NCBI GenBank assembly: GCA_012841305.1
Contig: DUVA01000207.1
Location: 1-34,133, forward strand
Direction of reading: 5' to 3'
Origin: Bacillota bacterium
GTDB taxonomy: Bacteria; Bacillota; SHA-98; UBA4971
DNA: 34,133 bases
Shown here: piece by piece, positions 8,588 to 18,549 of the stretch
Layout: every line of letters starts with the position of its first letter
Position numbering within the stretch: position 1 is the first letter of the stretch
Position numbers and translations under genes: made by a program
The notes under the pieces: model-generated
Seen by the model: the letters and a program-made list of their open reading frames with translations, nothing else
Told to the model about the DNA's origin: nothing
Database searches by the model: none

Positions 8588-11020
8588 TCAGTCGTCTCCC
8601 CTGGCAGACGGACACCATGCCAGGCCCACTAGGTGCACAGTTATGTTGGCAGACGTTGTGCGGATGCTGACTTCCTCCAGTTTTTGGTCTATAGGGTTGT
8701 AGATTTCTGCAACCCTATCCAATTCCTGCTGGAGTTGTAACGCCAGCTCTCCGAGTTGAGCCTCTACAGACTGTAGGGTCTCCTCGGCCTGGCTAATGCC
8801 GTCACCGCTCTGCCGCGCCCGGCCTGCGCTTCGAACAGCTGTGCCGACCCGGGAAAGCGAGGTAGAGCTGATGGACTTACGTCCAAGAAGAACACCTAGC
8901 AATGCGGTGCCTGTGGAAACCGCAGCATCCAGCTTCTTCTGCTGAGCTTGGGCAGTCTTTCTTTCCAAAGCCTGCCTGGCTCGCCTTTGACGATCTTCAA
9001 GTGTAGCCATCCTCGAGGCGTACTTCGTCCTGAGCGTTTCCATGGCCTCGTCACGGCGCTCGTGGCCTAAATGCTGAAGGCGGATACGAAAGTCTCGTTC
9101 ATCCTCACCGGGTTCAGATACTACCTTCAGGGTCGGACTGTAGAAAAGCTTCAGAGGAACCTCAGTGCGCAAAAACTGACTGAACAGCTTCTTCCACCTT
9201 TCGTAGCTGCCAGGATCTGCAGCAGACTGCGGATAAGTCGCAAAAGCCGCTCCCTCAAGGGGCGAAGCCTCCAGGTCACTAAGATCCAGATCTAGAGGCT
9301 TAGATTCCTTCCAGTCCAGCGCAACCGGCCCATCGTAAAGGGGCACCAAGAACACGTGACGTTGAGATGTGGCCACCCCGTGCTTGGCATTGGTATACTG
9401 TGCATCAGCCACGCCTATGACAGAAGGCACATATACCAGGCCACCCATGACACGGCCTGTCGGCGGCAGGTAAACCTGCCGGATCTTCGGTGAAAGCACC
9501 GGGGGAACAGTGCCTGCCTCTTGCAATTCGGTTTGCGGCGCCTTGACACCCGCAGTCTGTATAGGCGTCTCCATGAGCGAAGACTCATGCATCTCCCTCC
9601 GAGGCGCAGCAGGACGCTGTGACGACGGCAATGCAGCTATCTGGTCTCTTGTCAGCGGACCCGCCAGGTAGGAAAGGACCCACCTCGTCTGGAAAATCTG
9701 CGGCTCGTCCTCATGCACACTGTGCAGGTAAAACATGCGTTTCCCGAGCCCGGCCAGGATCTGCTCTGTCCTACGGCGGTCAAACAGGCCCCCGGCTGCC
9801 GCCCCTTCCAGCCCGGCCAGAACCCGCGCCTTGTCACGCTCGGTCTGAAGCCTGCCGATAAACCATGTTCCGGCATTGGAAAGGGCCTTGTAGTCCAGAT
9901 CAACTGGGTTCTGAGTTGCCAGAATCAGTCCTAATCCGTAGGCTCTGGCTTGTTTGAGAAGGGTCAGAAGCGGAGTCTTCGACGGAGGGTTTGCGGTGGG
10001 AGGAAGATAGCCAAAAAGCTCATCCATATATAGGATGGCTCGAAGACTCCCGGTTCCCGGCTGAGTGCGCACCCAAGCCAGTATCTCATTTAAGAGCATG
10101 GTTACGAAAAACATACGCTCGCTGTCAGAAAGGTGGGCAATAGAGAAGATAGAAACCCGTGGTTTGCCGTCTTTAGTATATAGGAACCTATTGACATCCA
10201 GGGGTTCACCCTCCAGCCACGCCTTGAAGCTGGGAGAAGCTAGCAAGCTGTTAAGCCTCATAGCAAGAGCAAAACGGTCTTTGGCAGGGTAGAAGCTCTC
10301 CAGATCCATTACGCCTACCTTGTCCATGGGCGGAGTTTGTATCGCCATGATCAGCTCGGCGAGGCCTAAGTTCTGCCCCAACTTCCAGTAATGCTCCAGA
10401 ATACCGGAGATTAAGATATGCTCCCGGCTTGTGAGTGGATCCGCATCCATACCCAATAGAGCCAGTAAACCTGTGGCAGTAGCATGTAGGCGATCGCTGT
10501 ATGCATCCTGGTCTTCTTGCAGGCGGGGCGGAGGAGCATCAAAAGAACGAAGGGCGGAAACACCGGGGCCGGCTGAGCTACCCGGCGTATAGACGGTAAT
10601 ATCCGCTGCATCCAAGAGCTTCTCAATGCGTTTTCCGCTCTGGCCCCAATCTTCCAATCCTTTTTGCCACAATTCTGCTTGCGCTGCAGCATAGTCGTCC
10701 GGGCTATACCCTTTGTTTGCAGCTTCATGAAGGTTTATCCAAGGACGGAAGTCTTCAGGACGCAGATCGGGGAACGTCAGAGCCATGTTGCCCAAGTCAC
10801 CCTTGGGGTCAATAGCGATCACCGGGATACGGTCGATAGCAGCCTCTTCCAGGATCCCAATGCCCAGCCCGGTTTTGCCGCTGCCCGTCATACCGATGAT
10901 GACTGCATGAGTTGTCAGGTCTTTCGACTTGTAGAGAACCAAGTCATCCAAAAGCTTACCTTGCTCCGGATCATAAGCCTTTCCAAGGTAAAACACACCG
11001 AGCTTCTCAAAATCCTGCAT
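8588..11020 (-). CDS. HerA/DUF853-like ATP-binding protein
   Basis: 810-aa ORF with Walker A (GMTGSGKTGLG), IDPKGDLGNM, Walker B-like AILYMDELFGYLPP, ILATQNPVDLDYKAL, and a coiled-coil-like C-terminus. Confidence 0.8.
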   Translation of the reverse strand: MQDFEKLGVFYLGKAYDPEQGKLLDDLVLYKSKDLTTHAVIIGMTGSGKTGLGIGILEEAAIDRIPVIAIDPKGDLGNMALTFPDLRPEDFRPWINLHEAANKGYSPDDYAAAQAELWQKGLEDWGQSGKRIEKLLDAADITVYTPGSSAGPGVSALRSFDAPPPRLQEDQDAYSDRLHATATGLLALLGMDADPLTSREHILISGILEHYWKLGQNLGLAELIMAIQTPPMDKVGVMDLESFYPAKDRFALAMRLNSLLASPSFKAWLEGEPLDVNRFLYTKDGKPRVSIFSIAHLSDSERMFFVTMLLNEILAWVRTQPGTGSLRAILYMDELFGYLPPTANPPSKTPLLTLLKQARAYGLGLILATQNPVDLDYKALSNAGTWFIGRLQTERDKARVLAGLEGAAAGGLFDRRRTEQILAGLGKRMFYLHSVHEDEPQIFQTRWVLSYLAGPLTRDQIAALPSSQRPAAPRREMHESSLMETPIQTAGVKAPQTELQEAGTVPPVLSPKIRQVYLPPTGRVMGGLVYVPSVIGVADAQYTNAKHGVATSQRHVFLVPLYDGPVALDWKESKPLDLDLSDLEASPLEGAAFATYPQSAADPGSYERWKKLFSQFLRTEVPLKLFYSPTLKVVSEPGEDERDFRIRLQHLGHERRDEAMETLRTKYASRMATLEDRQRRARQALERKTAQAQQKKLDAAVSTGTALLGVLLGRKSISSTSLSRVGTAVRSAGRARQSGDGISQAEETLQSVEAQLGELALQLQQELDRVAEIYNPIDQKLEEVSIRTTSANITVHLVGLAWCPSARGDD

Positions 11021-11290
11021 AAGGACTCCCCTCCAAGCCTTTTTCTCCCAGTCTGGCCCAAAGATACAAAGGGCTTGTCAATTAACGGCAACGCTGCGGC
11101 AACGCTGTCTTTTGCACCGATTTCTACAGCTAGCAGAGCAAATCGGTCTTCGTGTGTACTTTAGCATAGTTAGGACAGGATTCCAAGAAGTACAAGATTA
11201 CCGTCTGACACGATATCGGACTCAAACCCAACAAGCTGCCTGGCGAAATGCCCTGCCCAACTCTTAGGGATCACGTCGGTTAACACGAAC

Positions 11291-11825
11291 ATGGTCGATT
11301 TCCGACCACTTTTTTCAAAACGCTGCTTCAATTTCAACCACCTTCTTGGATTTTCGCATCAGAAAGCCGATAAGTGGTAGGTTCTCGACCACCTCCACTG
11401 GCAAACGTGTATGTTTTTCGACCACATTTCTGGGCTAAAGAGGGATTTTGATAGGTTCTCAAGGCTCAGGCGGAAGGTTTTCTACCACTTTTTTGGAAAA
11501 GGTGGCAGGTTTTCGCCCACCTTTCCAAAAAGTGTGGTCGATTTTGTATCCACAAGCCTCAAGTGAAGGGATTCTCTATGGTGAGGTGTTCTATATTCTA
11601 CCCGCTTGAGGCATGATGGTGGTTGATAATCTACCACCAATAAGCCTCGGGATGGTCGATTTCCGACCACGCAAGCCGTCGCTCCAAAAAATATGGTTGA
11701 AAATCGACCATCAACAAGCCCGAAGGTGGTCGATTACCTATCAACCCATCTAGGCAATTGCTCGGTGGAAGGTTGCAGAAAACCATACGGCAAAAAGAGA
11801 TTTATAGTTGATTTTCAGCCACCTA
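11291..11825. repeat. Array of degenerate ~19-bp interrupted palindromes (core GTGGTCGATTTTCGACCAC-like), ~32-33-bp spacing, non-coding
   Basis: Copies read at 11291-11309, 11374-11392, 11407-11425, 11470-11488, 11502-11520, 11534-11553, 11619-11637, 11652-11670, 11693-11711, 11726-11744, 11804-11822, plus more degenerate ones (~11332, ~11448, ~11585). The first and eighth copies are identical (ATGGTCGATTTCCGACCAC). Confidence 0.85.
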
Positions 11826-11887
11826 AGATGTGGCTTCGCAAAATGCGGAGTTTTCTATGTGCTATGGTCTGGAGATAGTAGATTATC

Positions 11888-11963
11888 TGGTGGAGACGAG
11901 GAGATTCGAACTCCCGGCCTCGTGAGTGCGATTCACGCGCTCTCCCAACTGAGCTACGTCCCC
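11888..11963 (-). tRNA. tRNA-Ala (anticodon CGC), CCA encoded
   Basis: Minus strand GGGGACGTAGCTCAGTTGGGAGAGCGCGTGAATCGCACTCACGAGGCCGGGAGTTCGAATCTCCTCGTCTCCACCA folds as a cloverleaf. Anticodon loop ATCGCAC. G3-U70 pair in the acceptor stem fits the Ala identity element. Confidence 0.95.
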
Positions 11964-18105: not shown

Positions 18106-18549
18106 AGCACCTTCACCTCCGATAATACATCAGAAATCTCCTGCCTCTGCTAGCAAAAAGCAATGGCATCTCTAATTCTTTATGATACCTTTGTTTCTCG
18201 CCAATGTCACCTGCTGCGCCCTTTTCTAGGCCCCCCTTCTCCGACTCGTTTGCTGTCCTGTTTTCCATCACACATTCCGGAACCGGGGTGTGGTAACTGT
18301 GTTCGAAAATAGGACACGGTTTTTAGAAAATCCCTGGCGACGGCCGAATTCCATTCCATATTTTGGCGAATAAGTTGAAAGGGCCTGAATTCCCATGGCA
18401 AGCTGATCGAATTTCGCACACTTGTGCCCGTTGGCGTGGTCGAATTACTGCCAATCTCAGACTCGCTGCGGTCCCTGAATGCAGTCATGGGCTAACAACA
18501 TCATTATCATTGTCTATACGAGTGCCATTAAGAAATGTTAACTACAATA

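Follow-up and report, generated by a model that had tools for sequence, protein, structure and literature searches.

What is the non-coding array of degenerate palindromes that lies between a HerA-like gene and tRNA-Ala in a member of the Bacillota (GenBank assembly GCA_012841305.1, contig DUVA01000207.1)? The first-pass annotation of this stretch, which is 34,133 nucleotides long and is termed the window herein, described at least eleven copies of the palindrome and offered three options, namely, a centromere-like locus or one that binds protein at multiple sites, a structured RNA that forms hairpins in series, and an eroding repeat family. We built a position weight matrix from the array sites and used it to scan the window, which bore out the annotated palindrome coordinates and gave 13 degenerate 19-bp sites at 11291..11822 (no strand assigned), starting at 11291, 11323, 11374, 11407, 11470, 11502, 11534, 11586, 11619, 11652, 11693, 11726, and 11804. 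The 32- to 33-bp steps noted between neighboring sites were also confirmed. At ≤3 mismatches, the consensus matched five times in the 34-kb window, versus 0.00 times in shuffled sequences. The most conserved positions were G3/C17 (pairwise identity of 0.98 to 0.99), followed by T2/A18, T10, and G7/C13; the annotated ranking of G7, C13, and the outer GG/CC as most conserved was therefore roughly right.

The same scan revealed a second, small array of four sites at 18253..18454 (no strand assigned; starts at 18253, 18299, 18403, and 18436), with an HflX-Dus gene on one side and a gene for an ABC transporter on the other; no transposon end was recognized nearby. The first half of the open frame at 15919-18063 matches HflX-type GTPase domains and the second half dihydrouridine synthase, an apparent fusion. 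The array observation is thus confirmed to be real and to be larger than annotated, extending to this second array, to a genome-wide family, and to transposon ends elsewhere.

The genome-wide motif search that the annotation had proposed uncovered a family across the organism's own genome (G000), with 235 consensus matches at ≤3 mismatches and 0 in the reversed control. Sequence was read from the genome as stretches around matches plus a few samples, and in the stretches around matches we mapped 45 arrays, which together contain 490 sites. Grouped by sequence, these arrays comprise 29 type-1 arrays (including that of the window), 13 type-2 arrays, and 3 small ones, and complete arrays carry 10 to 16 sites each. 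Twenty-five other long collinear copies of the window array were found, with identities of 76 to 89%. Among other genomes of the genus, the motif (≤2 mismatches) was present in five of six, being sparse and degenerate in G002, and was absent from G001 in the same search. A search of 398 phylum genomes gave no more than single matches outside the genus. Phage and plasmid collections contained no match to the array, and among viral contigs, five had a single consensus match each and none an array. In samples of the array-free genomes G001 (269 kb) and G007 (200 kb), palindrome clusters of other motifs reached about the shuffled maximum. Type-1 arrays have mean identities of 93% within G003 and 87% within G004, while those of G003 or G004 are 60 to 69% identical to arrays of other genomes and 57 to 62% identical to those of G006, so that the family was amplified separately in different lineages.

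No protein family recurred consistently beside the arrays in 40 stretches, and the HerA-like gene was accordingly rejected as a conserved partner. The annotated lack of cas genes holds as well, with none among the window proteins scanned and none recurring beside arrays; a CRISPR array was rejected because the repeats are degenerate and the spacers are homologous among copies. Short imperfect tandem repeats crowd beside several arrays (L008, L177, L185, L186, and L187), and a gene for a GmrSD-type restriction endonuclease adjoins one type-2 array (L193:853-2706).

Comparison of the flanks of different copies revealed end modules common to type-1 and type-2 arrays, and the junctions between end and array were common to copies at different places. 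A recognizable transposon end was located ≤350 bp from 22 of the 45 arrays, and none was recognizable near the remaining 23. The ends are of two kinds, and the same array is found between both. The first terminal inverted repeat, TIR-A (CAGGAATTCCGCAAGC), bounds the array-bearing copies L171, L175, L181, L197, and L331, and L179 is a degenerate TIR-A copy; L171 has both TIR-A ends and a perfect 9-bp target duplication, CCTCAACCC. The second, TIR-B (GTAAGCGTCAAATAGCCCCCACC), is present at both ends of array copy L226 of G003, together with a perfect 8-bp target duplication, CTATTGAC. Target duplications at other copies were imperfect or absent, and empty sites were found, but in fast-evolving gaps where duplications are not visible. 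Within the array loci, all 17 TIR-B matches and 15 of the 21 TIR-A matches lay ≤300 bp from an array, a zone that makes up 14% of the array-loci sequence.

The annotation had noted that no transposase is present, which is right locally; elsewhere in the genome, an IS66 transposase is encoded between ends identical to TIR-B. This IS66-family element (G000:C62:166-2614; locus L378) looks intact, with perfect 23-bp inverted repeats, an 8-bp target duplication (ATTATCCT), and TnpB and TnpC identified by Pfam. Its end sequence matches several array copies over 45 to 170 bp. The array elements are non-coding, and tnp genes occur only in the complete IS. For TIR-A ends, no transposase was found. The palindromes might instead be internal binding sites of the element's own transposase, as would suit their occurrence in transposable elements and their retention across copies. 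Against this, palindromic sites are missing from the IS66 elements of both G000 and G003, ends of two kinds flank the same array, and one TIR-A copy lacks an array altogether, which also indicates that mobility does not require the array. We therefore regard a role as transposase sites as very unlikely.

How does the window copy relate to this family? In G002, G003, G004, and G006, neither the HerA-like gene nor the array occurs in the interval from tRNA-Ala to an SDH-type protease gene. In G005, the closest relative, the orthologous place retains the array along with the start of the HerA-like gene. The G005 array is 95.7% identical to that of the window. Window positions 11181-11848 and 11847-11900 align to G005 locus L221, which has 156 extra bases between them; this piece ends in a TIR-B-like right end (L221:2640-2662), and the stretch leading to that end has a 97-bp match in the TIR-B end of copy L217. 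On the window's forward strand, the array is followed by a remnant of the right-end module (11823..11848) that stops at the 156-bp deletion relative to G005, and it is adjoined on its other side by the inner part of a transposon left end (11268..11292, forward strand), 24 of whose 25 bases are those found in L178 between array and TIR-B end. The window copy has no recognizable TIR, and no target duplication was seen; its assignment to a transposon is thus by homology. On other copies, we established the ends, the two perfect duplications, the shared junctions, the lineage-specific bursts, and a TIR-B-identical IS66 element lacking the sites; on the window copy, we established that the inner left-end sequence is shared and that the G005 orthologue retains a TIR-B-like right end. 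By this homology, the window array appears to be a decayed member of a transposon-borne family. The option of an eroding repeat family was to this extent borne out, in that the copy is decayed, and the specific form, a family carried by transposons, had not been proposed.

Integration targeted to the tRNA gene was also considered and rejected, as the tRNA 3' end was not seen, on inspection by eye, to be repeated on the far side of the insertion. The HerA-like (DUF87) gene (8588-11020; 810 amino acids), which lies in the insertion missing from the four genomes, has weak PADLOC matches to HerA and mad8. Beyond tRNA-Ala, the protein gene encodes a class-II tRNA synthetase, read as LysRS from its GreA neighbor, whose closest named relatives are in Thermanaeromonas and Moorella (64 to 65%).

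We then analyzed the spacing of the sites along the helix. Neighboring sites fall into spacing classes of 32/33 (the commonest), 41, 51/52, 62/63, 72, 83/84, and 103/104 bp, with 93 and 135 bp also seen in G006. Scanning periods of 6 to 16 bp over whole arrays gave best periods of 10.60 bp for type-1, 10.55 bp for type-2, and 10.50 bp for five G006 arrays, with mean register R values of 0.83, 0.88, and 0.91, respectively. The first 12 sites of the window array have a register of 10.60 bp with an R of 0.90 (P = 0.0001 against jittered spacings), and seven single arrays beat jittered spacings with P values of 0.00005 to 0.00025, values behind which stand few independent array architectures, as the copies share descent. 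Site detection was independent of spacing, except that matches <10 bp apart were merged. A helical fit from neighbor steps only, which gave 10.32 to 10.37 bp, was discarded because whole-array positions are incoherent there and coherent at 10.5 to 10.6 bp. Intrinsic curvature from phased A-tracts was likewise rejected, since the A/T-tracts of the spacers showed only loose phasing relative to the sites (R = 0.30). In 50 aligned type-1 copies from five genomes, sites were more conserved than spacers (0.78 versus 0.68; P = 2e-9), and nearly all indels were of one base. The positions and spacing of the sites are conserved while the sequence between them drifts.

Could this regularity be neutral debris, that is, an ancestral tandem repeat of ~32 to 33 bp serving as inert transposon filler, with the register a by-product of duplication and shared descent? 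The predominance of the 32/33-bp spacing would be expected of such a repeat, much of the conserved spacing is inherited through the shared descent of the copies, and G001 does without arrays and G002 has degenerate ones only. However, the steps of 41, 51/52, 62/63, and 72 bp keep the register although none is a multiple of 32.5, the sites are conserved above the spacers, and type-1 and type-2 arrays, which sequence similarity does not link, have motif and period in common. We consider neutral debris quite unlikely. The option of a multi-site protein-binding or centromere-like locus, by contrast, gains support from the whole-array register and from the conserved positions and spacing of the sites.

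If the array were transcribed into a structured RNA with serial hairpins, compensatory changes would be expected. The annotation had remarked that copies keep pairing despite substitutions; this turned out to be anecdotal, with pairing barely above that of independent columns. Over the 490 sites, pairing was close to the independent-column expectation, which only pair 4-16 of type-1 arrays modestly exceeded; over the 50 aligned copies, pairing was 0.734 versus an expected 0.731 ± 0.002, and double changes numbered 80 versus an expected 64 ± 7 (shuffled maximum, 85). Base-pair covariation is at most marginal. The window array does fold better than shuffled sequences (z = −5.1), as any set of palindromes would, and its first palindrome (11291-11315), which is followed by six T residues, scores terminator-like; a T-run after the first palindrome is common to many type-1 copies. 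An Rfam search of the window matched tRNA-Ala only and left the array without a match, and hairpins in an RNA would have no need of helical register. With no clear signal from the covariation test, the hairpin option is not supported, and we judge it highly improbable. Conserved half-sites without clear compensation would rather be the trace expected from a dimeric DNA-binding protein.

The same data bear on REP/BIME elements mobilized by a RAYT (Y1) transposase. Like these, the arrays consist of dispersed, clustered, intergenic palindromes in both orientations and are lineage specific. Unlike REP palindromes, which are maintained by complementary mutations (PMC2817692), the array palindromes exhibit no clear changes of this kind; the array elements end in TIRs with target duplications instead of REP ends; and no RAYT gene tracks them, as no Y1_Tnp was found in the array-bearing genomes G003, G004, and G006 and two were found in the array-free G001. 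A REP/BIME origin is therefore extremely improbable. Taken together, register, conserved sites, and marginal covariation fit protein-binding dyads on one face of the DNA, not RNA hairpins, CRISPR, or REP/BIME.

We conclude that the window array is likely the interior of a decayed, nonautonomous, MITE-like transposon, most likely of the kind with TIR-B ends matching those of the IS66 element, that carries a putative protein-binding strip on one face of the helix. The moving unit would consist of a left end, an array of about 12 dyad sites, and a right end. A dimeric DNA-binding protein may bind each palindrome and, with the sites on one helix face over about 40 turns, the bound dimers would align as a one-sided strip that could be bridged, polymerize, or dock to a partner. 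TIR-B copies would be moved in trans by the IS66 transposase, and TIR-A copies would need another transposase. Most tentatively, the strip might benefit the element or its host as an architectural or anchoring site. Two ParB_N proteins are present in array-bearing and array-free genomes alike, so that ParB counts do not track arrays and a standard ParB is not indicated. A bolder version, in which transposons with two types of ends picked up and keep re-spreading one-face dyad arrays, the arrays recruit a host protein into a one-sided strip, and each insertion acts as a chromosome-organizing or centromere-like anchor, is conceivable and in our view unlikely; if it is true, the nucleoid architecture of this genus would be shaped in part by its mobile elements.

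MITE-like elements are usually regarded as passive deletion derivatives; here, the interior consists of sites in an ordered arrangement, which retain their helical position in different species even as the intervening sequence drifts. The family thus makes it possible to test whether mobile elements spread strips of multiple protein-docking sites through a bacterial chromosome, and the arrays could serve as bait for finding the candidate DNA-binding protein.

Among known systems, the sopC centromere of the F plasmid is built of twelve 43-bp repeats, and a ParB dimer binds the 16-bp inverted repeat in each of them (PMC9178275). The arrays likewise pack about 12 short dyads into about 0.5 kb, and dimers bound to them may line up somewhat as on sopC; this likeness would concern the way of working only. 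They differ in being dozens of dispersed chromosomal copies inside transposons and in having no partition genes recurring beside them. With the IS66 family, the array elements share the identical TIR-B ends and the 8-bp length of the duplication; they lack tnpA, tnpB, and tnpC, and their interior is a palindrome array that is missing from the complete IS. The array elements come closest to MITEs, some of which carry a site for a host protein such as IHF (PMC10969869). Like MITEs, the array elements are short, non-coding, and dispersed, have no transposase gene inside, expanded in lineage-specific bursts, bear terminal inverted repeats and duplicated target sites where copies are complete, and carry a putative host-protein site. 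As for an autonomous relative with the same ends, TIR-B has one in the IS66 element, and none was found for TIR-A. We therefore view the array element as a variant of a MITE-like element that differs from a MITE in the number of its sites, with about 12 dyads in helical register rather than one, and in having the same array between two kinds of transposon ends.
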